Virus record (IMG/VR): IMGVR_UViG_3300047489_000453
Location: 62,001 to 126,000 of that record
Length of the DNA stretch: 64,000 bases
DNA from: a virus
Reading direction: 5' to 3' (one strand)
The notes beneath the pieces are model-generated. The model did not search any database, had not been told where the DNA came from, and saw only the letters and a list, made by a program, of their open reading frames with translations. The position numbers were made by a program, and so were the translations under genes. Shown in pieces: positions 1 through 58,167 of this stretch (positions are counted from its first letter, which is position 1; the number at the start of each line of letters is the position of its first letter).

Positions 1-2165
1 CATCTGCAATCGAGAGATGCTTTAAAAACGGGCTAGGTTGGTCAGACGACGACGCTGCCACGGCTACTGCCAAGGTAACCAAGTCAGTTGTCAACATTCT
101 CAGCAAAAAAACTGACTCTAATTACGAAGTCGAGGACATCCAAAAGGTAATAATTCAGCAGTTATGGGCCAGAGGATACGACGACGCAGCCACTCAATAC
201 ACTTTGTTTAAAGAAAAAAGGCGCAATGAGCGACTAGAGACTCCGGTAGATCCCGAGCTTAGAAAAATGGTCGATGACGACAATAAATACTTTCCATCAG
301 CCCTTCAGTATTACCAGTTTTTAAGTAAGTTTGCCAAATGGAACGAAGAGCTTGGCAGGCGTGAAACGTGGGGCGAGTGTGTTGATAGGGTCATGGATTT
401 CTTTGCCAAGAACAACTTTTACAAAAAGCTATCAGAGCAAGACAAGAAAGACCTTAAAGAATACCTTCATAGAATGGATGCGACTCCAGCCATGCGCGTC
501 ATTCAAATGGCAGGACCAGCCTTGGACAGGTGTAACGTAGGTGTTTATAACTGCAGCTATCTTACCATCTCTGACACCAAGTCATTCAGCGAACTGCTTT
601 ATATCCTAATGCAAGGTACTGGTGCAGGCTTTTCAGTCGAGCGTCAATACGTTAATCAGCTTCCTCCTGTCAGGCGGCAAACTGGCAAGGCTCCAAAGAA
701 GCTGACTATTATTGACGACACTGAGGGATGGTGTGACGCCCTGACCGCTGGTATTGATGCCTGGTTCAATGGCGAAGACATTGAGTTTGATTACTCAAAA
801 ATTCGACCAGCTGGAACAAGGCTCAAAACCAAAGGCGGCAGGGCTAGTGGGCCTGGTCCACTTATGGAGCTTATGTCATTCGCTCGTAACCTTATCCTGT
901 CTAGACAGGGCCAGTCCCTTACTGACATCGACTGCCATGATCTTGCTTGCAAGGTAGGCAAGATAGTACAGGTGGGAGGTGTAAGGCGTGCCAGTGAGAT
1001 CTCTTTAAGTGATCTAAACTCTGTGGAAATGCGTAACGCCAAGGCTGGTTCCTGGTGGACGAATAACCTGCAGAGGACGATGGCTAATAACTCTGCCGTG
1101 TATACAAAGAAGCCGGGAACTATTGAGTTCGTGGAGGAGTGGCTTGCGCTGGCTAAAAGCGGTTCAGGCGAACGAGGTATCTTTAATAGGGAAGGTGTTA
1201 ATAAGGCCCTTCCTGAAAGAAGGAAGCCTTGGACTTTCGGAACAAATCCCTGCGCCGAAATAATTTTGAGACCTTACCAGTTTTGCAACCTTTCCATTGT
1301 AGTTGCCAGGGAAAACGACACGCCTGAAAGCCTTGCTAAAAAGGTTCGTATCGCAACTATCTTTGGAACCATGCAGTCTTGCCTGACAAACTTCAAGTAC
1401 ATTCGTAAAGAATGGAAAGACAACTGTGAGGAAGAAAGACTTCTTGGCGTGGACATTACTGGTCAAATGGACTGCCCTATACTTAGGCCTGGCGCCAAGG
1501 GAAGGGCTGAGCTGCTTGAGAAGCTTAGAGGTATCGTCAACAAGACCAACGAAGAGTACGCAAAGAAGTTCGGTATTCCCAAGTCAGCAGCCGACACATG
1601 CGTTAAGCCGTCAGGTGATAGCGCTGTTATGTTCGGATGCTCTTCGGGTATTCACGCCAGGTTCGCCCAGTACTACATAAGACGCGTTCGTGAGCGAGCA
1701 GACAGCCCAATTGCACATATGCTTATTGACGCTGGTGTGCCTTGGATTGTGGCTCCAGAAGATGCTTCGCTTGTTGCTTTTGAGTTTCCCTGCGCTTCAC
1801 CTAAGGGCGCTATTATCAAGACTCAGCAGACCGCTATTGATCAGCTTGATAATTGGCTTGATTGGAAGCGCCACTGGGCTGAGCATTCTGTGTCTGCTAC
1901 TGTCTATATGGAACAGGATGAATGGCTAGACGCTGGCACCTGGGTTTATAAAAACTTTGATGAGATCTCTGGTATAAGCTTCTTGCCTAGGGACAACGGA
2001 ACTTATACAGGAACACCTTACGAAGAGATCGATGAAGCCGAGTACAAGCGAAGAGTGGAGACGTTTCCACAAGTTGATTGGGCTAAGCTTTCTAGGTACG
2101 AGAAGACAGACCACACTGAGTCAGCTCAGACCTACGCTTGCACTAGCGGCTCTTGCGAGCTGTAA
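1..2165 (+). CDS. nrdJ: Adenosylcobalamin-dependent (class II, monomeric) ribonucleoside-triphosphate reductase, 5' end outside window
   Basis: Reduces ribonucleotides to deoxyribonucleotides for phage DNA synthesis using a B12-generated thiyl radical. The reading frame is open from base 3, so the first recognisable start (TTG at 204) is not the real one. Bases 3-225 encode an ATP-cone-like allosteric domain ending in IQQLWARGYDDAATQY. The catalytic barrel carries an NCSY cysteine, then NPCAEI with a second cysteine 11 residues later (QFCNLS). This is the spacing of C408/C419 in the Lactobacillus leichmannii enzyme. The C-terminus CTSGSCEL has cysteines 5 apart, like C731/C736. These features point to the monomeric class II type. 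It ends just before a bidirectional terminator and faces the minus-strand cytochrome-like gene. Bases 2055-2070 hold one copy of the recurrent 16-bp palindrome. Confidence 0.95.
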   Translation, partial: SAIERCFKNGLGWSDDDAATATAKVTKSVVNILSKKTDSNYEVEDIQKVIIQQLWARGYDDAATQYTLFKEKRRNERLETPVDPELRKMVDDDNKYFPSALQYYQFLSKFAKWNEELGRRETWGECVDRVMDFFAKNNFYKKLSEQDKKDLKEYLHRMDATPAMRVIQMAGPALDRCNVGVYNCSYLTISDTKSFSELLYILMQGTGAGFSVERQYVNQLPPVRRQTGKAPKKLTIIDDTEGWCDALTAGIDAWFNGEDIEFDYSKIRPAGTRLKTKGGRASGPGPLMELMSFARNLILSRQGQSLTDIDCHDLACKVGKIVQVGGVRRASEISLSDLNSVEMRNAKAGSWWTNNLQRTMANNSAVYTKKPGTIEFVEEWLALAKSGSGERGIFNREGVNKALPERRKPWTFGTNPCAEIILRPYQFCNLSIVVARENDTPESLAKKVRIATIFGTMQSCLTNFKYIRKEWKDNCEEERLLGVDITGQMDCPILRPGAKGRAELLEKLRGIVNKTNEEYAKKFGIPKSAADTCVKPSGDSAVMFGCSSGIHARFAQYYIRRVRERADSPIAHMLIDAGVPWIVAPEDASLVAFEFPCASPKGAIIKTQQTAIDQLDNWLDWKRHWAEHSVSATVYMEQDEWLDAGTWVYKNFDEISGISFLPRDNGTYTGTPYEEIDEAEYKRRVETFPQVDWAKLSRYEKTDHTESAQTYACTSGSCEL
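2055..2070. repeat. 16-bp palindromic site, copy 1 (GTGGAGACGTTTCCAC)
   Basis: One mismatch from the perfect palindrome GTGGAGACGTCTCCAC. It lies inside the RNR coding sequence, where it encodes VETFP near the C-terminus. Confidence 0.8.
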
Positions 2166-2180
2166 TACCCAATAGCTAAA

Positions 2181-2216
2181 AAAATCCACTGTAGCTTACG
2201 GGCTACAGTGGATTTT
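2181..2216. terminator. Bidirectional intrinsic terminator
   Basis: Perfect 15-bp stem (2181-2195 with 2202-2216) and a 6-nt loop. T-runs on both strands serve the RNR gene (+) and the cytochrome-like gene (-). On the minus strand the T-run continues into AGCTATT, the tail shared by most terminators in this window. Confidence 0.9.
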
Positions 2217-2231
2217 TATTTGTTAATAGTT

Positions 2232-3272
2232 TTATTCAAACTTAACTATGCCAGCATCTATCAGTTCTTGCCGTAAAGATTCACCCTGGTATATGCCAGA
2301 GTAAGAGATTACGCCAGGACTAAATGGATGGAAACTGAATATACCGTCGCTTCCCCTTACACGGCCATACCAGTCTCGATTAAAGTCGAAGTCGCTAGCG
2401 TGCTTAAGAGTAGACTCATGGCACCTAGTACATGACTTAGTATCCACAGCTATAGTAGCCGCCTTAAAGCCTTTGGGAACAATATGAAACGCTTCCTCAG
2501 TTGTTGGAGCAAATGCATCTTTATTCCACTCTTGCCCTAAGGCGTTTACAAACTTCTGGCTAAGGGCTTTCTTAATCAAGCCATCAGACAGCTTGCCTAG
2601 TGAAGTTGTAGTCACATCGCCTTTGAATATCTGATGCGACTGGTAGACTCTCTTATCTGTGACAGACAACTCTTCGCCGTTAAAGCTGCAGAATCTCTGA
2701 AACTCTTTAAGAGTTGCAAATGGCCTGTACGATGTCATCTTCCAGCCATCGCTTGATTTGCTTCTGAGCCTGACCTCAAAGGTGTAGTATTTCTCTTTGT
2801 AGTAGATTTGAAGAACTTCACCTACTACAGCGCCCTCTGGGTACGCCCATACGTAAGAGGATCTTCTATCGCCTGGCAGAAACTTCTTGCTGACAACAAT
2901 AGGCTTATCCTTAGGCAGCAGCAAGAATTTAAAGGTAGAGAAATTATCGTCTGGAACACTTTCTGTTCCAGCTGGAGACCCCCATGGAAACTCTACATTA
3001 GGGTTGCCGTACAACTCCCTTGGCTTGTCGGCAGATATGTTATACGAGGGAGAGTGAATGCCTGGAAGGGCTCCAGCAAAATCTTGATAAGCTTTAGGCA
3101 TTTCCTTTTCCGTATATATAAGAAGCCTGCTATCTTTACGGATTCTATCTAGAACTCCGTCTTTACTGTCCGGTATATGAGAGGACAGTATCTCGTGCCT
3201 CTCAGGCGTAATAAACTTATAACCGTCGTTTCCTAAAATAGCCGCCAATCCTAGCGCCACAAATGAAAACAT
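2232..3272 (-). CDS. Exported cytochrome c-like protein (single CxxCH)
   Basis: A 346-residue protein of unknown role. It opens with a short hydrophobic segment (residues 1-15) that looks like a signal peptide. It carries one haem-c attachment motif, CTRCH, at about residues 281-285, followed by a C-terminal region with histidines and methionine-poor sequence. The rest is not recognised; similar long proteins with one CxxCH occur in environmental bacteria. Covalent haem attachment needs export, which agrees with the N-terminus. The start is set by AGGAGG five bases upstream of the ATG. A small hairpin (GGCTC/GAGCC) lies in the leader. The CxxCH is certain as sequence; haem binding is inference, because a lone CxxCH can also bind zinc. 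Confidence 0.7.
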   Translation of the reverse strand: MFSFVALGLAAILGNDGYKFITPERHEILSSHIPDSKDGVLDRIRKDSRLLIYTEKEMPKAYQDFAGALPGIHSPSYNISADKPRELYGNPNVEFPWGSPAGTESVPDDNFSTFKFLLLPKDKPIVVSKKFLPGDRRSSYVWAYPEGAVVGEVLQIYYKEKYYTFEVRLRSKSSDGWKMTSYRPFATLKEFQRFCSFNGEELSVTDKRVYQSHQIFKGDVTTTSLGKLSDGLIKKALSQKFVNALGQEWNKDAFAPTTEEAFHIVPKGFKAATIAVDTKSCTRCHESTLKHASDFDFNRDWYGRVRGSDGIFSFHPFSPGVISYSGIYQGESLRQELIDAGIVKFE

Positions 3273-3418
3273 AAAAACCTCCTGTCAAATGGGCTCCCAC
3301 AATCGAGAGCCGGGACTAAGAATAGTACCAACGAGTTAATATTTTACAACTGTTAAATTAATATTGCCGTCTTGATTTAATAGGCAATAGTAATAGACTA
3401 TTGGTGAAAGGAGCCACC

Positions 3419-4246: not shown

Positions 4247-4250
4247 TAGA

Positions 4251-4287
4251 TAAAAAAATCAGCCGTAGCGCATAAGCTACGGCTGAT
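4251..4287. terminator. Bidirectional terminator
   Basis: Twelve-bp stem 4258-4269/4276-4287, loop GCATAA. The minus-strand T-run is followed by ATCTATC, a variant of the shared AGCTAT tail. It separates the convergent genes ending at 4246 and 4293. Confidence 0.85.
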
Positions 4288-10527: not shown

Positions 10528-10543
10528 ATGGAAACGTCTCCAC
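10528..10543. repeat. 16-bp palindromic site, copy 2 (ATGGAAACGTCTCCAC)
   Basis: Two mismatches from the perfect site. It is intergenic, upstream of the PhoH gene and next to a CATAATTA promoter-like box on the minus strand. Confidence 0.65.
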
Positions 10544-15392: not shown

Positions 15393-17216
15393 TTACATTT
15401 TCATACGAAATTTTTTATACCATACGGCGAACATAACTATAGTGAATAGCTCTTTTTGGGCATTTAGCCCAGGTCCGGCTGACGGCTTGCCGCTTGCCTT
15501 TTTAGGACCGATATGGTTTACATTATTTAAATATTTGTTGTCTATATCTGCGGAGTTTATTTCGAATATTTCCATTATTTCCCGGTCACTAAGAATATCT
15601 CTGAAATAAGCCCTTATAGGTGAATTCTTCTTGGCCGGGTAGGCCTGAGTGCCGATTACCCAATCGTCAGTAGGAGCCCTCCAGCCTGTCTTGTTTTTAG
15701 TTGTTATAAACTCTGGGAGCTTTGAGTTGTAAGCAAGCCTTAGTAAGTTTTTATTGCACTGATCCCATCTTAGCTTGGAATGCTTTGGAGCGGCTTTTAG
15801 GTTTCCAGGTATACTTCTAGCAAAGTTTTTAAAAACATTACACATCATTGGAAACCTGGCTTCCATTCCAAAGGCCATTCCCAACTTGTCGTTTCTTACT
15901 AAAAAATCCTCACTTAAAGTGTGGAGGCTCTCTATGTACATTATGTCATTAAGATTATTACCAGTCAGGCCGCCTTTTGGAATCCACGACATAAGATACT
16001 CGTGCTGATCTTTGTTTGTAAGCGCCTTTGCTGGATCTAATAGTTTTCTGTGGTGTAGCCTAAGGCTGTCAAGCCTGTCATTAAAAGTGGCATGATTAAA
16101 GTAGTGCTTGTACCCGGCTAGCAGTTCGTCTCCTCCGTCACCGCTCAATGTGACTATTACGCCGTTGTCGCGCAGAAACTTATTAGTGGCGTAATAAGCC
16201 GAGTAACTTTTACCCTGCCTAGGCTCTTCAAGGGCCAGAACCGCAGACTCAAGATTGTCCAGCCAAGCCTGTTCGTTTATTTTTATTTCTTTATGGTCAG
16301 AGCCATAAAGCTCTGCAAGCTGCTTGGCTAAGACGGCATCCTCGTTATGGTTGCACTTTTTATGCGGAATATCAAATTTTGTGGAAAAGGTATGGGCGCT
16401 TATACCAAGTGATTTTGACATTTCGTAAAGAACAGACGAGCTGTCCATGCCGCCGCTAAGAAACAAGCCTACCTGCCTGCGCCCCATAAGTGTCATACTT
16501 ACGGCTTGTTTAAGCTTATCGTGAAGTAGAAGCGGAATGTCTTCTTCGTTCGAAGTAAATGGGTCTATCGGCCTGTTATTAATATTACTGCTATATTTGA
16601 CTCCTGTTCTTATATCCAGCTCTATAATTTCACCGGGTACAAGCCTGCTTATATTCTTGAAGCACGTTATTGGCCCGGCCGTCAGGCCTGAATAATAGAA
16701 GTGCTTGAACCCGTCTATGGACACTTTTCTCTCAAACCCAAGCTCAAGTAAGCTTGCCACCTCTGACGAGAATGCGAGTTTATTTTTTAGATATCCATAG
16801 AATAAAGGCTTGGCTCCGTTACTATCCCTTGCCAGTAGCAGCTTCTTTGATTTCTTATTATAAATAGCCACGGCAAACATACCGTCGCACTCGTATAAAA
16901 AGTCTTTTCCAAACTTTTCATACCCTTTGATTAAAACTTCGGTGTCTGTATCAGACACGAAGTCGCCGCCTATCTTAGCTCTAAGGGATTTGTAGTTATA
17001 GATTTCGCCGTTGTATACCATGACACTTGATTCAGTGTGCCATGGCTGGCTTGATTGTGGAGGCGTATCCACTATTGATAAAAGATTATGCCCCAAGGTT
17101 ATAAAGTCGTCGCCCCATATACCTTCGCCGTCTGGGCCTCTGTGTCTTGCTTTTTTAACCATGGCCGGCATGGCGCCGGTGTCATCTTTCCAACAAAATC
17201 CATGAATACCGCACAT
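15393..17216 (-). CDS. asnB: Asparagine synthetase B (glutamine-hydrolysing)
   Basis: A full-length 607-residue enzyme that makes an amide from a carboxylate using glutamine and ATP. The mature nucleophile Cys2 (MCGIHGF) fixes the start. The glutaminase domain has HRGPDGEG, MVYNGEIYNY and SDTDTEVL. The synthetase domain has the PP-loop FLSGGMDSS at about residue 255, and TLSGDGGDELLAGY. In polysaccharide clusters such enzymes often amidate sugars rather than make free asparagine. Its place between GT9 and leader-bearing proteins fits glycan modification. A diverged copy of the 16-bp palindrome (two mismatches) lies at 17057-17072. Confidence 0.92.
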   Translation of the reverse strand: MCGIHGFCWKDDTGAMPAMVKKARHRGPDGEGIWGDDFITLGHNLLSIVDTPPQSSQPWHTESSVMVYNGEIYNYKSLRAKIGGDFVSDTDTEVLIKGYEKFGKDFLYECDGMFAVAIYNKKSKKLLLARDSNGAKPLFYGYLKNKLAFSSEVASLLELGFERKVSIDGFKHFYYSGLTAGPITCFKNISRLVPGEIIELDIRTGVKYSSNINNRPIDPFTSNEEDIPLLLHDKLKQAVSMTLMGRRQVGLFLSGGMDSSSVLYEMSKSLGISAHTFSTKFDIPHKKCNHNEDAVLAKQLAELYGSDHKEIKINEQAWLDNLESAVLALEEPRQGKSYSAYYATNKFLRDNGVIVTLSGDGGDELLAGYKHYFNHATFNDRLDSLRLHHRKLLDPAKALTNKDQHEYLMSWIPKGGLTGNNLNDIMYIESLHTLSEDFLVRNDKLGMAFGMEARFPMMCNVFKNFARSIPGNLKAAPKHSKLRWDQCNKNLLRLAYNSKLPEFITTKNKTGWRAPTDDWVIGTQAYPAKKNSPIRAYFRDILSDREIMEIFEINSADIDNKYLNNVNHIGPKKASGKPSAGPGLNAQKELFTIVMFAVWYKKFRMKM

Positions 17217-18636: not shown

Positions 18637-19193
18637 GAGTCAGCCGTTAGCTTACTTACGTTGTTTTCACCAGTTACGTTTTTCTTTTTGCAGCCAACCG
18701 GAATATAGAATCCTAATTGTGGAGACGTCTCCAAACCATAGCTCCGGCGTATATCCTCAAGATTATCACTTTCTATTGAAATTGCCCATAGCTTTTCGTA
18801 CTCACCGTTAGCTGGGAGCTCTACTATTGGGCCTAAAGTATAGTTATAAGCGTGCCCTCTTTCAGTTACTTTGTCAGGGCCGCCAATCTTATCTACTTCG
18901 GCTTTGGTCATTACTTTAATAGCAGCCTCAGTACGATTATTACGCACAACAAACTCAGCGCCAGGCTCATGTAGGGCATCGAATACTCCTTTGATTAGGG
19001 AAGCTGGGACAGTAAGTTCTATGCCGCCGTTAGGGCCTGCTTGAAGCCTACCGGATAAAGCATGCACAGCCGTATGTGACCCTGCTTTGCATAGATGCCC
19101 GTGAGCCTGACCTAATGAAAAGAACTCGGAGTCGATGAGCTTTGCTCTTTCGATTCCTTTAGATAAACCCAACGATAGCGGCGGTATGGTCAT
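18633..19193 (-). CDS. Hypothetical protein (186 aa), start region duplicated nearby
   Basis: It begins MTIPPLSLGLSKG and lacks the leader of its neighbours. A central segment (GIELTVPASLIKGVFDAL and following) looks like a compact alpha/beta domain. No family recognised. It is coupled by ATGA overlaps to the genes on both sides. A 14-codon remnant of its first 11 codons lies at 19707-19751. One copy of the 16-bp palindrome lies at 18719-18734, coding for LETSPQ. Confidence 0.65.
   Translation of the reverse strand: MTIPPLSLGLSKGIERAKLIDSEFFSLGQAHGHLCKAGSHTAVHALSGRLQAGPNGGIELTVPASLIKGVFDALHEPGAEFVVRNNRTEAAIKVMTKAEVDKIGGPDKVTERGHAYNYTLGPIVELPANGEYEKLWAISIESDNLEDIRRSYGLETSPQLGFYIPVGCKKKNVTGENNVSKLTADS
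18719..18734. repeat. 16-bp palindromic site, copy 3 (GTGGAGACGTCTCCAA)
   Basis: One mismatch from the perfect palindrome, inside a coding sequence. Confidence 0.8.
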
Positions 19194-27821: not shown

Positions 27822-27837
27822 GTGGAGACGTCTCCAA
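27822..27837. repeat. 16-bp palindromic site, copy 4 (GTGGAGACGTCTCCAA)
   Basis: One mismatch from the perfect site. It is intergenic, 25 bases upstream of the 321-aa gene and just past the preceding terminator. Confidence 0.8.
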
Positions 27838-30687: not shown

Positions 30688-30703
30688 GTGGAGACGTCTC
30701 CAC
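30688..30703. repeat. 16-bp palindromic site, copy 5 (perfect)
   Basis: GTGGAGACGTCTCCAC, exact palindrome, in the gap upstream of the membrane protein gene, close to a terminator. Confidence 0.85.
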
Positions 30704-31124: not shown

Positions 31125-31214
31125 GGCATTTTCTCCTTTCATAAAAGAGGGCATGCCTGCCCTATATGAGATTAAGAATCATTCACGTCTGAATGATTAA
31201 CCTATCCCTTCATA

Positions 31215-31245
31215 TATCTATGACACATTTGTGCCTTGAATTAAG
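31215..31245 (-). promoter_or_regulatory. Phage promoter P3
   Basis: CTTAATTCA and GTCATAGATA separated by 12 bases, reading into the 112-aa gene. Confidence 0.8.
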
Positions 31246-31261
31246 GGCATGGGTGATAGCT

Positions 31262-31304
31262 AAAAAAATAACCCAACCCACTATTCAGTGGGCTGGGAGA
31301 TTTT
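31262..31304 (-). terminator. Terminator of the 45-aa cassette
   Basis: Stem CCCA-CCCAC with GTGGG-TGGG (31272-31297). It contains the stop codon of the 45-aa ORF and is followed on the minus strand by a T-run and AGCTATC. Confidence 0.85.
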
Positions 31305-31418
31305 TATTAGTGCCAGGGAAGATATCCCTAGCATAACCAGACCAACCAGTCTTTCGGTTGGGCTGGAGTTAAATCCAAAGCTAAGCATTAGACCCAGGGT
31401 AATCATGATTTCAAACAT
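31281..31418 (-). CDS. Small membrane protein (45 aa)
   Basis: Start ATG at 31418 with AAGGAGG five bases upstream. The protein opens MFEIMITLGLMLSFGF, has a polar stretch NSSPTERL, and ends in a second hydrophobic segment (VGLVMLGISSLALIKI). It probably spans the membrane twice. The stop falls inside the terminator stem. It follows the 60-aa gene in the same unit. Confidence 0.6.
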   Translation of the reverse strand: MFEIMITLGLMLSFGFNSSPTERLVGLVMLGISSLALIKISQPTE

Positions 31419-31450
31419 GATTACCTCCTTTCTGTATGACCAAGTCCCCC

Positions 31451-31633
31451 TTAGGAGAAGGACTTGGCGGCCACAGCGTTAACTGGTAACGCTTTGTGGC
31501 CTGACGAGAAGATCTTTGACCTGGCAACAACGCCGGTCTTAGATTCTTCTCTAATGGACTCTTCTTTCGGATGAGCCCATACAATCCGTCTTGCTTTTGA
31601 CAGAAGCAAGAAAAACTGTGTGCTTGACTGCAT
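31451..31633 (-). CDS. Small basic protein (60 aa)
   Basis: The start has AGGAGG four to five bases upstream. Residues 5-12 are hydrophobic; the remainder is basic (KARRIVWAHPKEESIREESK). Not recognised. The stop lies within a CCAAGTCC/GGACTTGG hairpin (31440-31467). Its leader has a 7-bp hairpin (31669-31685) below promoter P4. Confidence 0.6.
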   Translation of the reverse strand: MQSSTQFFLLLSKARRIVWAHPKEESIREESKTGVVARSKIFSSGHKALPVNAVAAKSFS

Positions 31634-31705
31634 GTTACCTCCTATAACACTATCAAGCTGGGATCAGGGCCACATCGCATGTGGCAGATAACCCGTCCCT
31701 TCATG

Positions 31706-31736
31706 TATATATGACACGGTAACGGGTTGAATTAAG
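31706..31736 (-). promoter_or_regulatory. Phage promoter P4
   Basis: CTTAATTCA and GTCATATATA, 12 bases apart, upstream of the 60- and 45-aa genes. Confidence 0.8.
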
Positions 31737-31748
31737 TGGTCCAGTAAT

Positions 31749-31784
31749 AGCTAAAAAAAAAGAACCCGGCCTTTCGGCCGGGTT
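31749..31784 (-). terminator. Terminator of the 94-aa cassette
   Basis: Perfect 9-bp stem AACCCGGCC/GGCCGGGTT (31763-31771, 31776-31784), loop TTTC. On the minus strand it is followed by nine Ts and AGCTATT. Confidence 0.9.
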
Positions 31785-31790
31785 GACTAC

Positions 31791-32075
31791 TTAGTAGTCT
31801 GACGCCGGTGAGGCGTCATTCTTTTTATTTTTGGGCTTTCGCTTCTTCTTCAGAAGCTTAGCCCGCCGGATTAGGCGAGCAGCCCGCTTGGCTTCCCGCT
31901 CGTTGTCGAGACGGGTAATGGCAAGCAATACCTCCTGTTGGAGGGTTGCTTGCGCATGCCTCTTCTTCATTAAGTCGTCAAGGCGACGACTTAAGAAGAT
32001 TCGGCTATGCAGCTCGGCCGCCAAAAGGCCAAGCCCGAAACAAAGGATACATCCAATGATGTACTCCATGTCCAT
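31791..32075 (-). CDS. Small membrane protein with basic tail (94 aa)
   Basis: One N-terminal transmembrane segment (residues 4-22, YIIGCILCFGLGLLAAEL), then a helical region and a strongly basic tail (RAARLIRRAKLLKKKRK). The layout suggests an inner-membrane protein binding nucleic acid or lipid on the cytoplasmic side. AAAGGAG lies seven bases upstream. The leader has a perfect 8-bp hairpin (32108-32127). Confidence 0.65.
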   Translation of the reverse strand: MDMEYIIGCILCFGLGLLAAELHSRIFLSRRLDDLMKKRHAQATLQQEVLLAITRLDNEREAKRAARLIRRAKLLKKKRKPKNKKNDASPASDY

Positions 32076-32162
32076 TGTTATACTCCTTTCAGTATAACGA
32101 GGTCAGCGTCTGCTCAAACGAGCAGACTGTAAGCCGCCTCTAATGGTTATGTCTCTTTCATG

Positions 32163-32193
32163 TATATATGACACGTTTATGGCCCGAATTAAG
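32163..32193 (-). promoter_or_regulatory. Phage promoter P5
   Basis: CTTAATTCG and GTCATATATA, 12 bases apart, upstream of the 94-aa gene. Confidence 0.8.
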
Positions 32194-32204
32194 GCCTGGT
32201 AAGT

Positions 32205-32345
32205 GATGCCTAAAAACATCTAGATCAACGCCAGCGACAGACTGCACTAGCGTTGATCGGTAATCCCCACGCATTATGGCCGTCGCCATAATGCAATATG
32301 ATGGTCGCTCAATATTCGCTCGGGGCTTGCGAATAGCCAACATAT
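32205..32345 (-). ncRNA. Candidate small RNA unit without ORF
   Basis: It has the layout of the neighbouring cassettes (promoter P6, hairpins, terminator) but no ribosome site and no convincing ORF. Reading on the minus strand there is an ATTCGC/GCGAAT hairpin, then a perfect 10-bp hairpin (GCATTATGGC at 32271-32280 with GCCATAATGC at 32285-32294), then a 9-bp terminator stem (32223-32231/32250-32258) followed by TTTTT. About 140 nt. A 61-codon frame in this stretch has no ribosome site and runs through all stems. Confidence 0.55.
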
Positions 32346-32349
32346 CATT

Positions 32350-32380
32350 TAATTATGACGCAATTATTGATTGGATTAAG
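32350..32380 (-). promoter_or_regulatory. Phage promoter P6
   Basis: CTTAATCCA and GTCATAATTA, 12 bases apart, reading into the structured non-coding unit. Confidence 0.75.
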
Positions 32381-33003
32381 TTGTTCCATAAGCCTGTTGT
32401 TCCATGTCTTGTGAGTTGTGGAACGCGTGGAACGCGTGGAACGACTTTATGTAACTTGTTATGTTTAAAGCAGTTATATTAATACATGTTGTTCCAAGTT
32501 CAATAAAAGCTGTGGAACGCGTGGAACAATCGCATGTAACTTGTTATTCTTAAAGTACTTACATAAATATATGTTGTTCGATAAAACTCTTGTCACTTTC
32601 TTCACCCTAGGTGCTAGTAACTGATTAGAGTTCCCCTATAAGGGACCATCTAATCCCTAAGCTCCCGCTGGCCCTACTAAGGATTGTGATTAAGGTACTT
32701 CTTGACCCATAGGTTCCTATGGTCCTGAAGGTCCTTGATAACATTCTCGTGGTTTATCCTGTATTGGAGACCATGGTAATCGAGAAGCTCGTTTACCTTA
32801 TTGGTATCCTCTAGGTCCCATGAGGTCCTTAGGGCCTGACTAGCTAACCAAGAGCTAACTATGGGCTTTCCTAGCTTATGGCTATTAGGCCTGTCGTATG
32901 CTCTTATGAGAGATTCGGATAAATTATTAAATTTAAAAGACTTATGCTTATATAGTCTGTTCCATAAACCCGCTGTTCCAAGTTCGATAAAAGTTGTGGA
33001 ACG
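32381..33003. repeat. Iteron-like repeat region (GTTCCA/TGGAAC)
   Basis: The hexamer GTTCCA or its complement occurs 11 times, in two clusters (32381-32587 and 32955-33003). It includes a tandem 9-mer GTGGAACGC and two 55-60-bp imperfect copies (32449-32510, 32534-32587) of a block starting ATGTAACTTGTTAT. A third partial copy lies at 32961-33003. Bases 32381-32676 otherwise hold no gene. Possible origin or protein-binding array. Confidence 0.6.
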
Positions 33004-33030
33004 TTTTAGATTTATGACACGTTGAAACAA
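32677..33030 (-). CDS. Hypothetical protein (117 aa), start uncertain
   Basis: The C-terminal 80 residues look like a real soluble helical domain (NKVNELLDYHGLQYRINHEN and DLQDHRNLWVKKYL). The first 30 residues are encoded by the third GTTCCA repeat and by a P-like promoter box (33009-33018), and no ribosome site precedes the ATG. The true start may be downstream at a non-ATG codon, or the gene may be decaying. Confidence 0.45.
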   Translation of the reverse strand: MFQRVINLKRSTTFIELGTAGLWNRLYKHKSFKFNNLSESLIRAYDRPNSHKLGKPIVSSWLASQALRTSWDLEDTNKVNELLDYHGLQYRINHENVIKDLQDHRNLWVKKYLNHNP

Positions 33031-33041
33031 AATGATTTAAA

Positions 33042-33465: not shown

Positions 33466-34506
33466 TCATCCTTCTATAAGTCTTTTCCATTGTGAAAGAA
33501 ACTGGCTTCGGGCAGCCCTTCTACCTGACGCTGTATTTTTACTTATCGACAACAGGCCGTCTTTAATAGCGTTTACAACTACCTCTATGAATGCCTCTGG
33601 ATTAGGTTCTGCATACATTACGCCGCCCTTTGAGCCGCCACAATTACAGGGCACTAGTCTTCCGTTAACACCGTCTGTAATTATGTTTGATATAGGCGGC
33701 ACATCGTAGGCTATAACCGGCGTACCCATATAAAGAGACTCTATGCCAACCAAGCCGAATCCTTCTATTTCAGCTGGCCACAATACAAGATCATGCTTGC
33801 TGTAAAGAATAAGTGAGCTGGTACAAGTTGTTTCATCAATAACCAACTTAATAGACTTATGTTTTGTAATAAATTTAGCTAAGGATTTCTTACAAGACCA
33901 AGGCATACTCTTGGGGCTGTGCGATATAGTTATAACCACGTTTGGAAGCTTAGCCTGAATACCTGTCAGTATTTCATAAAGTGAATCCAGGTCACATCTT
34001 AGGCCTTGGCTTGAATGCAACGGAACTAGTATTCTAGGGGCATCCAAGTTTATATCAGATGCTTCTTTTTTAGTTATTGGAATAGGGCTGTCCCACTGAA
34101 TAGTGGAGGCGTCTCTAATATTTACTTCCTTCTGCAGAGTATTAGTATTATCAAGGCAAGGCGACACGACATGGGCACATATCTTAAATGACGACCTTAT
34201 ATAACCTGGCAGGCAGTCCCATGGCGCCAAGGCTATTGTTACTATTGATTTGCCTACTTTTTGAACAACTTCTCTACTAGGTGGTACAGGCCATATGATA
34301 TGGCTTATATCGCTGAGCCATTCCTCGTATGACATGTCTTTTGGAGTTTTTACTATGCTATCCCAGTTACAGCCGTAATGGTGCTTGGGAATCTTATTGC
34401 TGAATAGAGTTGTTTCGTATCCTATTATTTTAAACGAATCTGCTAATCTCAAGGCCGCGTATACGGCATCGTGTGGTTTATACTGGACATCGAAGCCTAT
34501 TTTCAT
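33466..34506 (-). CDS. Family 4 glycosyltransferase
   Basis: A 346-residue GT-B enzyme. The C-terminal domain has the GT4 signature EIEGFGLVGIESLYMGTPVIA with the catalytic E-x7-E, and DGVNGRLVP. The N-terminal domain is short and begins KIGFDVQYKPHDAVYAAL. Probably adds a sugar from a nucleotide donor to a surface glycan. It abuts the next gene (2 bases). Confidence 0.82.
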   Translation of the reverse strand: MKIGFDVQYKPHDAVYAALRLADSFKIIGYETTLFSNKIPKHHYGCNWDSIVKTPKDMSYEEWLSDISHIIWPVPPSREVVQKVGKSIVTIALAPWDCLPGYIRSSFKICAHVVSPCLDNTNTLQKEVNIRDASTIQWDSPIPITKKEASDINLDAPRILVPLHSSQGLRCDLDSLYEILTGIQAKLPNVVITISHSPKSMPWSCKKSLAKFITKHKSIKLVIDETTCTSSLILYSKHDLVLWPAEIEGFGLVGIESLYMGTPVIAYDVPPISNIITDGVNGRLVPCNCGGSKGGVMYAEPNPEAFIEVVVNAIKDGLLSISKNTASGRRAARSQFLSQWKRLIEG

Positions 34507-42156: not shown

Positions 42157-42915
42157 TTAAAGAACACCATTGCCTGGTTTAAATTCCTTGGGTTTCTCAT
42201 CAATATAATCATAACCGCTTTGTGGAGACGCCTCCACTTCTTTATCCTTATCAATATTGTCCTTAACTTCGTCTGGAAGATCCTTTTCCTGGCTTATTGG
42301 AACCAGGCAATGCTCGTATGGGCCGAACTTATGGTGTATTGCTGGCGGCTTGATAAGGAACAAGCTATCTATGCCGTCAACCATAACGCCTATAAAAGCA
42401 GCAGACTCATTAGCCAGCTTGCTTGTAAACGGATAAAACTCTCCTGAGCCAGCATACCTTAAGTCAGTTGTTAAAACCAGATAACCAGGAACTACTGTTA
42501 CCCCATGATATTTGTAGTTCAAAGTTGCCAATCCAGGCATATCAAAATAAACTCTTACAGATGGCGGAATTACGGCAGAGTCTGGTAAAGGTGCTGACGG
42601 GTGGACATGATTACCGCCGTCTAAGGTAGGAGACACTGTGCCAAGATTAGGAGGCGGAGACCCGGTAAGATCGCTTCTAAATTTCTTCAAGTTTTCAGCT
42701 ATTACCTTTGATCTGTCAGTCTCGCTTAAAGACCTTAGCTCATTTACCTTGTCTTGTTTGACAGCGTACGGGTTGCCGCCTAGAGACTTCATAGCATTAA
42801 GGTCTATAGTGAATGAGTCTAGTTCATGGGGGTCTACTACTATTTTTGTTACGTTTTTGTTTGAATCTATGTTTGATCCATTGGTTATAGAAGCCAGGCC
42901 ATTATGATCATTCAT
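42157..42915 (-). CDS. Hypothetical protein upstream of portal (252 aa)
   Basis: Residues 1-110 are polar and probably flexible; 115-210 form a beta-rich domain (VRVYFDMPGLATLNYKYHG and VVPGYLVLTTDLRYAG). Acidic tail. Not recognised; perhaps a virion assembly factor by position. AAAGGA lies upstream. The palindrome copy at 42222-42237 codes for VEASPQ in its C-terminus. Confidence 0.6.
   Translation of the reverse strand: MNDHNGLASITNGSNIDSNKNVTKIVVDPHELDSFTIDLNAMKSLGGNPYAVKQDKVNELRSLSETDRSKVIAENLKKFRSDLTGSPPPNLGTVSPTLDGGNHVHPSAPLPDSAVIPPSVRVYFDMPGLATLNYKYHGVTVVPGYLVLTTDLRYAGSGEFYPFTSKLANESAAFIGVMVDGIDSLFLIKPPAIHHKFGPYEHCLVPISQEKDLPDEVKDNIDKDKEVEASPQSGYDYIDEKPKEFKPGNGVL
42222..42237. repeat. 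16-bp palindromic site, copy 6 (GTGGAGACGCCTCCAC)
   Basis: One mismatch from the perfect palindrome, inside a coding sequence. Confidence 0.8.
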
Positions 42916-45626: not shown

Positions 45627-45885
45627 AAATAATCGTCAAGGCAATTAATACTGCTCGGCTAGTCATATCCTTGTCGAGCCACCGGCTGCTAATTCCTGGT
45701 GGAGACGTAGACACAATTGTAACCCTGTTAGTAGCAACCCAATAGTTAATAGACTCGTCCAGAGGCTCAGTTACTTTAACCAGTCTCCAGTCATCAGGCG
45801 CTGCTCCTGCTGGTCGCTCGTATATTCTTTCTTCCACGAAAGTTTTAGTCTTTAAAAGCCTGGACTCATTGGTCGAGTGGTTCAT
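45586..45885 (-). CDS. Hypothetical protein (99 aa)
   Basis: Soluble (KTFVEERIYERPAGAAPDDW and SINYWVATNRVTIVST). It overlaps both neighbours by 20-41 bases, suggesting coupled translation. A half-site of the palindrome lies at 45699-45714 (three mismatches). Not recognised. Confidence 0.55.
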   Translation of the reverse strand: MNHSTNESRLLKTKTFVEERIYERPAGAAPDDWRLVKVTEPLDESINYWVATNRVTIVSTSPPGISSRWLDKDMTSRAVLIALTIIYEGGPDAQWPERT

Positions 45886-51051: not shown

Positions 51052-51774
51052 TCATAGCCCTATGGGCGGCTCATCGTAGCCCCTTCTCTTTGAGGCTGAT
51101 TCTTTTCCGTTCTCGTCTGCGTTTATAGCTATACCTTTGTTAAATTTTTTAAGTCTAAGTCCTTCATGCTTTATAAGCTCTCCAAGCAATACATCACCGC
51201 CCCTATGCTTTAGATCTTTATGTGGCCAGTCGTATTTACTTAGTAAGCTTGACTTTATAGACCACCAACCGCCTGTTGCAAAAAGCGTCCTATTAGACAC
51301 CATGCTAGGCTTGAACCACGAACAGTGGAGACGTCTCCACTCATTTTGTTTTGGAAAAGATATTACCTGATACAGGGACCCTATCATGTCTGCCATTGTC
51401 TCTACCATGAAGTTCTCAACTTCTGTGAGCCACTTGACTGGACTAGGATCTTTTATATAGCTATCGTCATCAAACCACATTACATAATCTGTAGTTATTG
51501 GATCTGTTTTCCAGAGTAGCTCTCTCATCGCTGGATACTTATAGATCTGTGGATTATTTTCTAAGGTTATAAGTCTTTCGGGCTTTTCAAATAATTTTTT
51601 TATTACGCTTCTAGTCCTGTCGGATATCTCGTTACAGGATATTCTCACAGGCGTGCCATTATTATAAAGCTCGCTTATAGGCTTTAAGCACCTATAAGCG
51701 AGCTCAGGATAGTCTCCGTATAGAAGACAGCATACAGTGGTAGACCATCTAGATGGTCGTAATTCACTAGTCAT
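51052..51774 (-). CDS. Family 2-like glycosyltransferase (240 aa)
   Basis: TTVCCLLYGDYPELAYRCL, then ITTDYVMWFDDDSYIKDP with the DxD motif, and TLFATGGWWSIKSSLL. It stands alone among DNA genes, far from the glycan blocks. It carries a perfect palindrome copy at 51325-51340 (encoding WRRLH). Confidence 0.72.
   Translation of the reverse strand: MTSELRPSRWSTTVCCLLYGDYPELAYRCLKPISELYNNGTPVRISCNEISDRTRSVIKKLFEKPERLITLENNPQIYKYPAMRELLWKTDPITTDYVMWFDDDSYIKDPSPVKWLTEVENFMVETMADMIGSLYQVISFPKQNEWRRLHCSWFKPSMVSNRTLFATGGWWSIKSSLLSKYDWPHKDLKHRGGDVLLGELIKHEGLRLKKFNKGIAINADENGKESASKRRGYDEPPIGL
51325..51340. repeat. 16-bp palindromic site, copy 7 (perfect)
   Basis: GTGGAGACGTCTCCAC, exact palindrome, inside the glycosyltransferase gene. 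Confidence 0.85.
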
Positions 51775-51775
51775 G

Positions 51776-52708
51776 TTAACGGGCTATTTTGCTCTTTCCA
51801 GACCTTGATGAAGAATCGTCTCTCTTCTCCGAGGTCTTCTTTCTTTCAGAGCTGTTCTTGATGATGGTGCCAGGAATTTTTCCTGTATACTCCGTAACTC
51901 TATCAATAAGCTCCGCAAGATTCTCAAGGCCCTCATTTACAGAGGCGGCCTGTTGAGCAAAAAGCTTTAAGTCCTCATCAGAGCCTGTTTCAATAGCCTC
52001 ATTTACGTCAGATAGAAGCTCATCGACTTTTGTCTTAAGCTTAAGGCCGTACCTACAGCTGCCGGTTATTATCTGTTTAAATAGAGACTTAACATTAGCC
52101 CTAACGTTATTTACCTTCTTTGCCTTCTTATTACCATATACGAGCTTAACTTCTGCAGCCAAAGCCCTTACTGATAACTTGTTCTCTACGGCAAGATTGA
52201 TCATCTTTCGCCTATCCTCGTGAGGATCGGTAGAGGACGAAGACTCTGGAATGTGAAGAACATTTACAAAGTGCGACCAAGTCAGGGTCATGCCTTTGTT
52301 TTCTGCTCCGTCAAGAACGGTCTCAAGCTCTTTCTTATTAACGTACATATTGCTGAATTTGATGGTCTTATACATGGTTGACCTATCAACTCCAAGCGCT
52401 GTCGCCATTAGATTAACGGCAGCCTCACCGTATTTTGGATTTCTATTAATCTCAGCTGCTACTGAGCCCCTGTCGTAGTTGAAAGTCACGATATCGCCCC
52501 TATGGTCTTTATAGGCTTCCTTTTCTTTTTCATAGATTTGACGAAGACCTTCGTCCATTCCTTCTATTGCTTTCTTTCTAAGCTCAATTTCCGCAGTAGA
52601 CAGCTTGGAGACATCATCGCTAATGGCTTCGTCTGCGTCCACATTATGCTCATTTACAGCGGCTTTGGTTGTTTTCTCAAGTTGTTCAAATTTTTCACTC
52701 ATGCTCAT
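51776..52708 (-). CDS. Putative ParB/KorB-like helix-turn-helix DNA-binding protein
   Basis: A 310-residue, mostly helical protein. AAVNLMATALGVDRSTMYKT is a helix-turn-helix, followed by a helical region (TLTWSHFVNVLHI, then RKMINLAVENKLSVRALAAE) that resembles the second DNA-binding region of KorB- and ParB-type proteins. The C-terminal 60 residues are Lys/Ser/Asp-rich. No clear N-terminal CTPase motif is present. It is a candidate for the protein that reads the 16-bp palindrome. GAGG lies upstream. Confidence 0.5.
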   Translation of the reverse strand: MSMSEKFEQLEKTTKAAVNEHNVDADEAISDDVSKLSTAEIELRKKAIEGMDEGLRQIYEKEKEAYKDHRGDIVTFNYDRGSVAAEINRNPKYGEAAVNLMATALGVDRSTMYKTIKFSNMYVNKKELETVLDGAENKGMTLTWSHFVNVLHIPESSSSTDPHEDRRKMINLAVENKLSVRALAAEVKLVYGNKKAKKVNNVRANVKSLFKQIITGSCRYGLKLKTKVDELLSDVNEAIETGSDEDLKLFAQQAASVNEGLENLAELIDRVTEYTGKIPGTIIKNSSERKKTSEKRDDSSSRSGKSKIAR

Positions 52709-54295: not shown

Positions 54296-54307
54296 TGATT
54301 ACTCCAA

Positions 54308-54850: not shown

Positions 54851-54859
54851 TGGAACTCC

Positions 54860-56041
54860 TTAGCTGCACTCGCCAGACATCTGGTCACAGTACGGGACAT
54901 TGATCTTAAATGGAGTCCTTTTTCTTATACCATGCATCTTGTCCAGGCTAAGCCTTACTTCTTCGTTGTCCTCTATAGCTTGCCCGATTTCAGTCCAGCT
55001 GGTCTTGTTAAGCCCTAAGAGAGAACAATCTGCTGTCTTTCTGGCCTTGTCTATGTTTTCAAGGCCTAAGAACGAACACACTCTACCTTTTCTTGTAGGG
55101 GACATGGCGTTGATGACCGCTATAGAGGCTTCATGCCAATCCCATACTGTATGCTGTAGCCCATTCTCATCATGGGTCCACTTCATAGACACAGTTATCT
55201 CTCTGTTCTCACCAGCGTTACTTAGTGAGTTCTTCTCCATGACAAGCTCGACGATCCTTATGGATTCATTAAGCTTTTCAATCTTTTCTTTCAAAGACGT
55301 GTATATCTTCATGGTGGCGTGATAGGTTAGGGCCTCTCCGCCGGGAATTCTCTTTATGTTGAACCCCCTGGTATCCTTAGATATCTTTACGTGATTTACG
55401 CCTATGAAGCTAAATGGCCATATTCTCAGCTCATTGAACATAAACTTACAGTAGGTATTTATAAGATTGGCACCTTTGGCAAATCCTATGGAGGCGTGAC
55501 CTTGCTCCCATATGTCGCTGATATCAGAGTCGGTTGTAACGCCTGTAAGCGAATCAACTCCAATAGCTACGGGGAACGGGCACCCGCCTAGTACAGGATA
55601 CATGTCCCTTCCTTTTTTCATCCAAGAGGTAATGCTCTTCTGCCATTCCTCTATAGACCCGCATAAGTTGGTAGGAAAGTTTTTATCTCTACTATGGCCA
55701 ATTATGCTAGCCCTAAGGTCAGGGGTATCTCTTGCTTCAGTAAGGTTGTAGACATAACCACCGCTGTTATCTACGTGCCATTTAAACATTTCAAACAAGA
55801 AAGCCGTTTTGCACGAACCACTAGGGCCGTACAGCTCTGTCATTCTTGATAAAGGGAAACAGTCATTTTGAAAAAAGTACCTTAGACTAAAGGCTTTTAA
55901 TGGAAGACCTATAACGACTTCCTGTGACTCGTCCCCTATGTACACATCATTTCTACCCAGGCTGTTCTGTGATGAGCTCATCTGTGAAGAGAAGAAGTCA
56001 GTTAAAGTACCTTGTGCAATTTCAGCTTTCTTTTTAGCCAT
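54860..56041 (-). CDS. RecA/UvsX-like recombinase
   Basis: A 393-residue RecA-fold ATPase for strand exchange and recombination-dependent replication. Walker A is GPSGSCKT (72-79), FPVAIGVDSLTG (about 155) is Walker B, and FIGVNHVKISKD with IPGGEALTYHA covers the L2 and sensor region. The N-terminal 60 residues and the C-terminal helical part differ from bacterial RecA. GAGG lies upstream. Co-located with exonuclease, RuvC and the possible ssDNA-binding protein. Confidence 0.85.
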   Translation of the reverse strand: MAKKKAEIAQGTLTDFFSSQMSSSQNSLGRNDVYIGDESQEVVIGLPLKAFSLRYFFQNDCFPLSRMTELYGPSGSCKTAFLFEMFKWHVDNSGGYVYNLTEARDTPDLRASIIGHSRDKNFPTNLCGSIEEWQKSITSWMKKGRDMYPVLGGCPFPVAIGVDSLTGVTTDSDISDIWEQGHASIGFAKGANLINTYCKFMFNELRIWPFSFIGVNHVKISKDTRGFNIKRIPGGEALTYHATMKIYTSLKEKIEKLNESIRIVELVMEKNSLSNAGENREITVSMKWTHDENGLQHTVWDWHEASIAVINAMSPTRKGRVCSFLGLENIDKARKTADCSLLGLNKTSWTEIGQAIEDNEEVRLSLDKMHGIRKRTPFKINVPYCDQMSGECS

Positions 56042-56083
56042 GATTACCTCTATGAAAAATTATGAATAGTTATGAGATTAGGT

Positions 56084-56117
56084 AAAACTCCCCGGCTTAA
56101 AACCGGGGAGTTTTAAA
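56084..56117 (-). terminator. Terminator of the 470-aa gene
   Basis: Perfect 12-bp stem AAAACTCCCCGG/CCGGGGAGTTTT (56084-56095, 56103-56114). It lacks the AGCTAT tail. Confidence 0.8.
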
Positions 56118-56123
56118 TAGTTA

Positions 56124-57536
56124 TTACTGACCAGATACGTTGTTGTTCTGTCTAGCTCGCCTTAGTTTTTCTTTGATGTCATCTCGGATCTTTTCAGCTC
56201 CTTCAGACGACTCAGAGATACTATGGCTGATAATGCTGGACAAATCAGACATGTTATTTATAAGTGGAGCCACCTGCTCTTGAAGAGGAGTAGGGGCCAC
56301 TGGGAAAGGAGGACGTCCTTGAACAGCAGGCGATGCTGGGAAAGGATAAGTAGGAAGCTCTGGAACCTGTGGAACCTGTTGAACAGGTGCAGGTACCGCA
56401 GGAACTTGATACGGGACAGCAGGTTGCTGATAGGCATAAGGCTGAGCCATAGGCTGAGGAACAGGCTGCTGAGCCGGTTGCCACTGCAATCCTGGATTGG
56501 CTACTGTAGTTGCCATAAGCCCTACCTGCCTTAAGAACTCGCTTCCAAAGGAAACAAAATCTGCGGGCAGCAGTCTTTCGTATCTATCCCTGAGTGCATG
56601 AACAACTAATCCAGCACTTGCTGGGTTATCGCGCATGCTGTCTATAATAAACCTTACCTGCTCTTCATCTGAAGGGAAGGACAGTGAGTCCCTGATTGGA
56701 GTTGCCACTCTCTTGGCGATCATGGCAATTTCTTCATTGTTGAAAGTAGCAGGAACTCCCCTGTGGGATTTGGTAAGAATGCAGTCATAACCAATAGGCT
56801 TCATCTTTGAGTTGTATGAAGACATAGGCTGCTGAGGCTTCATGGCCTCGTAGCCTCTAGGCACGAATCCCATTTCAAAGAACATCATGAACGAGCCTTC
56901 GGTAAGGCTCACAAAGTCACCATGTTTGAATCTGAGATTTGGATCTTCAGACGTTACTCCGCTAGGGCTGTTGATTTCCCTATTCATAGCAGTCCATGCT
57001 GATTTTTTAAGAAGCATGAATACTGTTTGGTGAGTAGGAGCCAAGCCGTCTGGAGGAGTATTAGGTTGGCCTTTATATTCATAAATGGCGCACCTTACAA
57101 GAAGAGCTGTATCCGGCCTTGAGATAAGAGCCGACCTTCCCTGGCCGCCTTTAAGCATAAGCGCCCATTCCTGAGGGCCTCTCATCTTGCCGTTCTCTAC
57201 CTGCTTTACCAGATCATAAATAATAACCGCAGGGTTATTGCGGGTATCATAATGTCTGTCTTCGGGGTCGTAAGCTATCCATGACTTCTGTGGGTTACCA
57301 AATCCAAGTACCATAGAAGCAGCGTAGAACCAACCCGAGAAGTCGTTCTCCGTGTATCTTGATGGTTGGAAATTATTACCCTGGATACAGGGAAAAACTC
57401 TGATGACAGTAGGGTCCGATTTTGACCATGAAGGCCGCTTAATCATGCCAGAGCCTGGCTTAAGAATATGATCCCCTCTGTTAGACTCCCTAGCAGCATT
57501 TTCGCTAGGCATTTTAAAACCTTGAAAACCAGTCAT
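56124..57536 (-). CDS. Hypothetical abundant DNA-metabolism protein, possible ssDNA-binding protein (470 aa)
   Basis: The start is the ATG at 57536, after GGAGG with a 5-base spacer; the frame opens further back to 57596. An unrecognised folded domain covers about 20-320 (SKSDPTVIRVFPCIQGN and QEWALMLKGGQGRSALISR). A Pro/Gln/Ala linker (PQPMAQPYAYQQPAVP) and a charged helical end follow. Its place beside RecA and its own terminator suggest an ssDNA-binding or annealing protein. This is a guess. Confidence 0.5.
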   Translation of the reverse strand: MTGFQGFKMPSENAARESNRGDHILKPGSGMIKRPSWSKSDPTVIRVFPCIQGNNFQPSRYTENDFSGWFYAASMVLGFGNPQKSWIAYDPEDRHYDTRNNPAVIIYDLVKQVENGKMRGPQEWALMLKGGQGRSALISRPDTALLVRCAIYEYKGQPNTPPDGLAPTHQTVFMLLKKSAWTAMNREINSPSGVTSEDPNLRFKHGDFVSLTEGSFMMFFEMGFVPRGYEAMKPQQPMSSYNSKMKPIGYDCILTKSHRGVPATFNNEEIAMIAKRVATPIRDSLSFPSDEEQVRFIIDSMRDNPASAGLVVHALRDRYERLLPADFVSFGSEFLRQVGLMATTVANPGLQWQPAQQPVPQPMAQPYAYQQPAVPYQVPAVPAPVQQVPQVPELPTYPFPASPAVQGRPPFPVAPTPLQEQVAPLINNMSDLSSIISHSISESSEGAEKIRDDIKEKLRRARQNNNVSGQ

Positions 57537-57595
57537 TGAAACCTCCGAAAAATTTCGACCGTAAAAACGGTCTGGCCACAAAAAAATAAGTAACA

Positions 57596-58075
57596 CTAAG
57601 ACTTTTTTATTAGCTGGAGTTTTTCCGCCAATAGGGAAACTTGAAGATTTAATAAATTTAAATCACCAGAATTTTCTAAGATATGAGTACAGTCTTCTGC
57701 CTTGTAAGTCAACGTTGGATCTGCACTAATTCCAGGTCTTTCAACCCATACCGCGTAACTAATATAACCCCTTTCTATACAAGACTTTAATTCTATTTTA
57801 TCCCTTATACCTGTAATAACTTTAGCTTTTTCAAGACACATCCTTACTAATTTAGTGGGGTCGTCTTTTCTAAAATCATTAAGTATATTATACCACTCCA
57901 TTCGCCTTTTATGACGAGTTTCCCAGGCAGTTTGCTCAGGTATTTCAAGGGCATCCGCAACTATGCCTTTGCATACCCATGAAGCACTTCCTGCATATTT
58001 AAGGCCTGTTAATTTGGAAAACATAAACGCTGCGGTATCTTTTCCAGATCTTCCATGGCCGCAAAAAGCTATCAT
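57596..58075 (-). CDS. Deoxynucleoside monophosphate kinase-like P-loop protein
   Basis: A 159-residue kinase. The P-loop is AFCGHGRSGKDTAA at the very N-terminus, and GIRDKIELKSCIERG and YAVWVERPG are typical of phage dNMP kinases. Shorter than T4 gene 1 (about 240). It would raise the dNTP supply together with RNR and ThyX. The ribosome site is weak. Confidence 0.75.
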   Translation of the reverse strand: MIAFCGHGRSGKDTAAFMFSKLTGLKYAGSASWVCKGIVADALEIPEQTAWETRHKRRMEWYNILNDFRKDDPTKLVRMCLEKAKVITGIRDKIELKSCIERGYISYAVWVERPGISADPTLTYKAEDCTHILENSGDLNLLNLQVSLLAEKLQLIKKS

Positions 58076-58151
58076 ATTTGACCTTTCAGCTAGCAGGTCA
58101 CCCTATTCTATTCATTTTTTAAATTTGTCAAGCCTAACAGCAAATTAATTA

Positions 58152-58167
58152 GTGGAAACGTCTCCAC
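58152..58167. repeat. 16-bp palindromic site, copy 8 (GTGGAAACGTCTCCAC)
   Basis: One mismatch from the perfect site, intergenic between the kinase gene and the 84-aa gene. Confidence 0.8.

Follow-up and report, generated by a model that had tools for sequence, protein, structure and literature searches.

Palindromic sites at fairly even intervals along large phage genomes, and a candidate helix-turn-helix binder

Results

A 16-bp palindrome recurs along the window and its parent record

The stretch analysed here, called the window throughout, comprises 64,000 nucleotides, bases 62001-126000 of a 136,787-b virus record (IMGVR_UViG_3300047489_000453, abbreviated G000), and our subject is a 16-bp palindrome, GTGGAGACGTCTCCAC, that recurs along it inside and between genes (Table 1). 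The record belongs to a phage, as judged from its UvsX-like recombinase, family A DNA polymerase, ribonucleotide reductase and tail-lysin match, and its relatives encode terminase and tail genes, fitting this identity. The named relatives, Salmonella phage Arash and Vibrio phages D69, D181 and D148, are distant, with about 30% identity in terminase and RNA polymerase, and megablast with the first 25 kb found no near-identical DNA in named phages.

With up to three mismatches allowed, the window holds 11 matches to GTGGAGACGTCTCCAC versus 0.12 expected, and the largest count in 100 dinucleotide shuffles of the window was 2. The initial annotation of this DNA had listed all of these matches, and each of its eleven coordinates proved correct, as did its count of seven sites with at most one mismatch and its division of the eight main sites into four intergenic and four genic ones. 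Among the copies it had called weaker, the one at 34103 is real, that at 17057 is uncertain and that at 45699 is probably a chance match. The TTG that it had placed before the site gives way, in the alignment of sites, to A/T-rich flanks that extend the palindrome symmetrically to a motif of about 24 bp, AATAGTGGAGACGTCTCCACTATT. Further copies fill the remainder of the genome: the whole record carries 21 sites with at most two mismatches, and a reversed control pattern gave 0.

Table 1. Palindromic sites and associated features, in window coordinates unless a locus is named
Feature	Position	Strand	Remarks
Site, 1 mismatch	2055..2070		In ribonucleotide reductase gene, near 3' end; present at the aligned G006 position
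Site, 2 mismatches	10528..10543		Intergenic
Weak site, 2 mismatches	17057..17072		In gene; absent in G006 and G003; uncertain
Site, 1 mismatch	18719..18734		In gene; same position in G005, G006 and G003
Site, 1 mismatch	27822..27837		Intergenic
Perfect site	30688..30703		Intergenic
Degenerate site, 3 mismatches	34103..34118		In glycosyltransferase gene; conserved in G010 and G013
Site, 1 mismatch	42222..42237		In gene; conserved in G005, G010 and G013
3-mismatch match, probably chance	45699..45714		Not a site in any relative aligned there
Perfect site	51325..51340		In gene adjoining the candidate binder; encodes WRRLH
Candidate cognate protein, 310 aa	51776..52708	-	DUF1016_N-like/ParB-type helix-turn-helix predicted (about residues 73-191), then two long helices
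UvsX-like recombinase gene	54860..56041	-	Context; near the candidate binder
Site, 1 mismatch	58152..58167		Intergenic
Arash element, five copies	L112:26621-26842, L113:16368-16589, L114:124-345, L114:38471-38692, L115:23245-23466		Extents approximate

The sites are far more evenly spaced than chance placement

An exact 16-mer scan of 2.9 million viral contigs returned 52 stretches, mostly from few contigs with many copies. Whole records carry 25 copies in G005 (190 kb), 20 in G006 (181 kb) and 15, 14, 12, 12, 11, 10 and 9 in the others, some of these same-word records being near-identical strains. G005, G006, G003, G010 and G013 align in part to the window's phage, at about 73-74% DNA identity. 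Among 84,980 bacterial and archaeal species, scanned for exact matches to the phage consensus only, 28 matches were found and no contig had more than one, which speaks against a host as the source of the site. Each of the two near-complete same-word genomes has a site-free sector of 20-25 kb at tail-fibre-like genes, which spans 66792-92269 in G006 and runs across the contig end in G005 (185049 to 14862), a size that presumes joined contig ends.

The initial annotation had proposed that the spacing be compared with random placement, and against this reference, taken along the genome for all regularity P values given here, the sites are far more even than chance. The coefficient of variation (CV) of the gaps is 0.41 in G000, against about 0.96 for random placement, with none of 20,000 simulations as even, and 0.44 in G005, again against about 0.96. 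At up to two mismatches, gaps are over-regular in each of eight genomes (P 0.016 or less), and the pooled gap histogram of the same-word genomes peaks at 7-8 kb. This property extends to nine lineages with different words, described below: each array is over-regular, with P from 0.017 to 1e-5 and a combined P of about 3e-20 when the lineages are treated as independent. Spacing is about 7 kb in the window's phage and 4-15 kb in the other lineages; these phages are large and mostly uncultured.

Selection acts on the sites as DNA

Even at a flank identity of 51-70%, many sites occupy the same base of the alignment in relatives. Pooling the pairs with flank identity of at most 0.8, the 16-mer is 0.89 identical and the flank 0.64, compared with 0.70 and 0.70 at random positions, a figure mildly biased in that a conserved 16-mer can help to anchor the alignment. 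The sites thus persist in relatives while the flanks diverge, and the loss that the initial annotation had considered is not what we observe.

Across seven phages, 93 of 116 sites lie inside genes, and they use all three frames (34/47/12), encoding peptides of the VETSP, SGDVST and WRRLH types in unrelated proteins. A conserved protein motif is ruled out, since three frames yield three unrelated peptides. In the same 116 sites, pairs 2-8 of the palindrome show 43 one-sided changes, a single double change and no compensatory one, and both arms vary alike; pair 1 shows three compensatory cases, no excess over independent change. These pair counts speak strongly against an RNA hairpin. Of 127 sites in eight genomes, 25 lie at least partly outside called genes versus 12 expected, indicating some intergenic enrichment with the majority genic. 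Because the sites use three frames and lack compensatory pair changes, neither a conserved peptide nor an RNA stem accounts for them; and because they are kept amid flanks of about 64% identity and are spaced over-evenly, it is DNA rather than RNA or protein on which selection acts. As far as sequence comparison can tell, the palindromes are very probably selected protein-binding sites.

Sister lineages carry other dispersed words at other positions

A search with the major capsid protein retrieved a large family, 58-100% identical. Outside the clade, 44 of 47 relatives have no GTGGAGACGTCTCCAC site and the other three show a single match apiece, with 2 mismatches. An unsupervised search for palindromes dispersed over the genome recovered the known word in G005 and found different ones in other lineages. 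Eight further lineages have a dispersed word of their own, seven palindromic and one asymmetric; the first scans of G017, G023 and G040 were swamped by coding-sequence repeats, which was remedied by 2.5 kb bins and masked palindromes. The palindromic words are AGTATTnnAATACT in G019 (38 sites), AATTTGTCTGCCGGCAGACAAATT in G023 (13), AATTTTGATCAnnTGATCAAAATT in G030 (30), AATTTTATTCACGTGAATAAAATT in G041 (14), ATCTAAAAAGTACTTTTTAGAT in G052 (15), TAAAAnCGnTTTTA in G056 (27) and, with freer inner positions, a TCTTGACGTCAAGA-type word in G017, also written TCTTnnCGnnAAGA (27-28 sites). The asymmetric word of G027, GGTAAATARGAACC, occurs at 18 sites, on either strand, in a genome whose genes nearly all point the same way. 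Shuffled genomes gave 0-4 matches at equal threshold, and a specificity matrix limited every word to its own lineage or to close relatives by the helix-turn-helix (HTH) protein described below. One of the latter is G022: its HTH protein resembles that of G027, and the G027 word occurs in it in seven strong copies that are far apart and lie on either strand (1907, 10380, 26953, 49792, 65726, 89181 and 122595). A TTTTGATATCAAAA family in G040 was a weak lead, too degenerate to accept as a word.

We then compared positions through protein alignments. When seven other-word lineages were projected onto G005, none of 37 projectable sites came to lie 60 bp or less from a site of G005, the distances being broadly random-like, and few sites were projectable for the most distant lineages; for G006, which shares the word of G005, 13 of 18 sites came to lie that near. 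Even spacing combined with non-homologous positions suggests that a site every few kilobases is selected, rather than the control of particular genes, and that spacing, not locus, is under selection.

An evenly spaced element of another kind is present in Arash, a distant relative (OQ632216.1). Five copies of an element of about 220 bp that contains inverted parts are distributed around the genome at intervals of 34-40 kb (circular gap CV 0.075, P 3e-5); the passages found of the Arash paper make no mention of it. Separately, G023 contains arrays of repeat units of about 90-100 bp (AAGTGTGCTTTGC, CAGAACATAATC) at 184942-190196.

An HTH protein is a candidate binder

The initial annotation had hinted at a phage HTH protein as the binder, and a plausible candidate is the product of window positions 51776-52708. 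This protein matches DUF1016_N (Pfam PF17761) weakly and N-terminally, at 20.2 bits, under the curated cut-off of 32.8, which the orthologs in G017 (35.1 bits) and G027 (34.7 bits) exceed. DUF1016 proteins carry a nuclease domain, whereas none was recognised in the candidate. Its orthologs are 36-60% identical in same-word phages, with conserved HTH blocks, and about 20% identical in G017 and G027. The DUF1016_N profile detects the family in 25 of 34 records, with one match in 24 and two in G044. In all eight further lineages (G017, G019, G023, G027, G030, G041, G052 and G056) the gene keeps a syntenic position, adjoining a glycosyltransferase-like gene near the UvsX-like recombinase, and the block in which it lies also encodes DNA polymerase, primase and helicase.

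Structure prediction gives a helical protein in which the HTH region is mostly at a predicted local distance difference test score (pLDDT) of 77-93 and two long helices lie C-terminally. In a fold search against solved structures (PDB), the 20 best matches are all ParB, Spo0J or Noc (probability 0.96-1.00, E 0.05-0.34), and the HTH_ParB profile gave three weak matches in eleven phages, all in the candidate gene. A ParB-type DNA-binding fold is thus predicted for this protein. The HTH alignment profile had a single match among PDB sequences, a Rev protein, in the C-terminal helical region. The ParB_N domain was found in none of five records at E up to 1, which speaks against a classical ParB, and ParA-type AAA_31 in none of ten records, with all 14 controls positive.

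When contigs were searched with the HTH protein, nine loci came up, every one of them in a site carrier; two were new, with gaps between sites of 7,439, 7,497 and 4,232 b. In a comparison of eight lineages, more similar HTH proteins tend to go with more similar motifs (Spearman 0.50, Mantel P 0.006). Comparing gene presence and absence with G017 failed to point to a binder, as the gene list was long and the candidate is present there in diverged form. Overall, we regard this protein as probably the binder of the palindromes, a judgement drawn from its sequence, predicted fold and distribution.

Discussion

A proposed genome-organising role

In the reading that we propose, a symmetric dimer encoded by the phage binds the palindromes as double-stranded DNA, and the likeliest such dimer is that of the DUF1016_N-like/ParB-type HTH protein of the window. 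Dimers of this protein would dock on the sites, marking the genome at fairly even intervals, and could bridge, condense or tether it during replication. Taken as a whole, this explanation falls just short of an even chance in our estimate, while an organising role, as opposed to silencing or a recombination landmark, is somewhat favoured. The initial annotation had preferred genome organisation to single-gene control, and its preference is supported by the even spacing in nine lineages and by sites re-laid at non-homologous positions when the word changes. The lack of a detected CTPase domain makes spreading of the ParB type less likely. More tentatively still, this may be an undescribed system, in which a ParB-HTH protein with neither CTPase nor ParA marks roughly constant intervals, selection keeps the spacing and not the loci, and a change of word is followed by an array laid anew elsewhere. 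No description of such arrays was found in open-access papers, an absence that is not proof of novelty.

Several observations weigh against this proposal. The regularity is moderate (CV 0.4-0.6), some pairs of sites lie less than 1 kb apart, and the word of G027 and G022 is asymmetric. G040 has a DUF1016_N gene, but the dispersed-palindrome scan of its whole genome gave no clear word. The Pfam profile misses G000 and G005, in which the gene is present, and has no match in seven other records. The E-values of the fold matches are modest (0.05 and up), and the nine loci of the HTH search are mostly known carriers, so that this test is not fully independent. Covariation failed as a pointer to the binder: nine of 33 core genes covary with the motif equally or better, and the HTH protein ranks 10th of 34 by Spearman and 5th by Pearson.

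If the proposal is true, large phages order their genomes by dedicated, evenly spaced protein docking sites. To our knowledge, comparable ordering is known only from bacterial chromosomes and plasmids, where it lacks such regularity. The nine natural lineages, which differ in their words and all encode an orthologous candidate protein, would offer a model for the joint evolution of DNA recognition and a genome-wide site array, and the regular array would provide a measurable length scale for phage genome structure in infection.

Alternative explanations

The sites could instead be landmarks of replication or recombination, at which the HTH protein loads a recombinase or helicase, or protects ends, at intervals. 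We consider this unlikely, even though the gene lies near the UvsX-like recombinase in the replication block and even spacing suits a need that scales with length: the cumulative GC skew does not switch repeatedly, the known sites of the Chi type are short and have a direction, and the sites bear no independent sign of initiation or loading, though no search was aimed at it. A host protein whose sites the phage exploits is improbable. The binder being a candidate leaves room for a host factor, but no host contig has more than one exact copy, and the quite different words of related phages would need many unrelated host factors. Marks for DNA packaging or ejection, such as virion anchoring or pausing sites, would agree with even spacing along the whole genome; this reading is nevertheless improbable too, as the candidate binder sits among replication genes and not structural ones, and we know of no packaging system with many 16-26 bp palindromes. 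RNA hairpins, serving as terminators or processing sites, are strongly disfavoured and by far the least credible reading: RNA transcribed from a palindrome can fold, and some of the sites lie between genes, but the pair counts speak against it, the majority of sites lie within genes, and the window has no Rfam match.

Stoperator-like silencing, in which a phage repressor on the sites would block transcription elongation genome-wide, appears quite unlikely. The likeness seen by the initial annotation holds for the many dispersed copies (21-25 per phage genome), and nearly all genes run in one direction. In Cluster A mycobacteriophages, repressor sites are dispersed in up to about 30 copies, and their consensus varies by phage and drifts with the repressor (PMC6550527), resembling our lineage-specific words. 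Membership in that class is not supported, however. Stoperators are 13 bp long and mostly point the same way with respect to transcription (PMC6550527). Their recognition sequence is asymmetric according to the paper on the repressor structure (PMC9283540), and the phages that carry them are temperate (PMC9283540, PMC6550527). The present sites, by contrast, are palindromic with arms that vary alike, and symmetric sites cannot share one orientation with transcription. Moreover, no tyrosine integrase was found in ten records, some of them incomplete, four fifths of the sites (93 of 116) lie inside genes, and even spacing at non-homologous positions would be unexpected if operons were the targets.

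Comparison with known systems

The nearest known systems are Noc with its Noc-binding sites (NBS), ParB/parS, the KorB operators and the stoperators, and in the comparison with each, the phage arrays fall short on a defining feature (CTPase domain, ParA or site asymmetry); the phage arrays most resemble dispersed marking of the Noc type. The parS site, which we take to be TGTTTCACGTGAAACA, shares the ACGT centre of the phage palindrome, and both are 16-bp palindromes, with a ParB-type HTH predicted here from the fold matches and the weak HTH_ParB matches. The phages differ from ParABS in lacking detected ParB_N and AAA_31, and in having about 25 evenly spread sites in place of a cluster or a few, the dispersed centromeres of the phage-plasmid N15 included. 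The NBS of Noc are dispersed over the genome, as are the 16-bp sites over the phage genome, and Noc structures are among the fold matches of the candidate. By contrast, Noc is a CTPase with a membrane-targeting helix, and we know of no Noc counterpart to even spacing and lineage-specific words. In Bacillus nucleoid occlusion, the NBS are 16 bp (PMC8429893) and are bound by a ParB-type HTH protein. KorB of plasmid RK2 is a ParB-family protein with long-range action from palindromic operators (PMC11790492). It is a cytidine triphosphate (CTP)-dependent clamp acting with KorA; the phages have no detected CTPase domain (ParB_N), and their sites ignore gene boundaries.

Other genes and regions

In G005, a 1485-aa protein (L065:3408-7865, minus) can be aligned across 81-98% of its length with Arash gp206 and with RpoB plus RpoC regions in other records. 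Its sequence suggests a fusion of the beta and beta' subunits of RNA polymerase, and proteins with sigma region 3 and region 4 are likewise encoded. G005 also encodes a 61-aa protein (L069:12096-12281, plus) judged CsrA-like by eye from its sequence. In the window, a gene of the spore photoproduct lyase family with a radical SAM match lies at 58446-59573. The longest stretch of G000 devoid of a called gene, 93143-95041 (window 31143-33041), lies near the perfect site at 30688 and is overlapped by short open reading frames.

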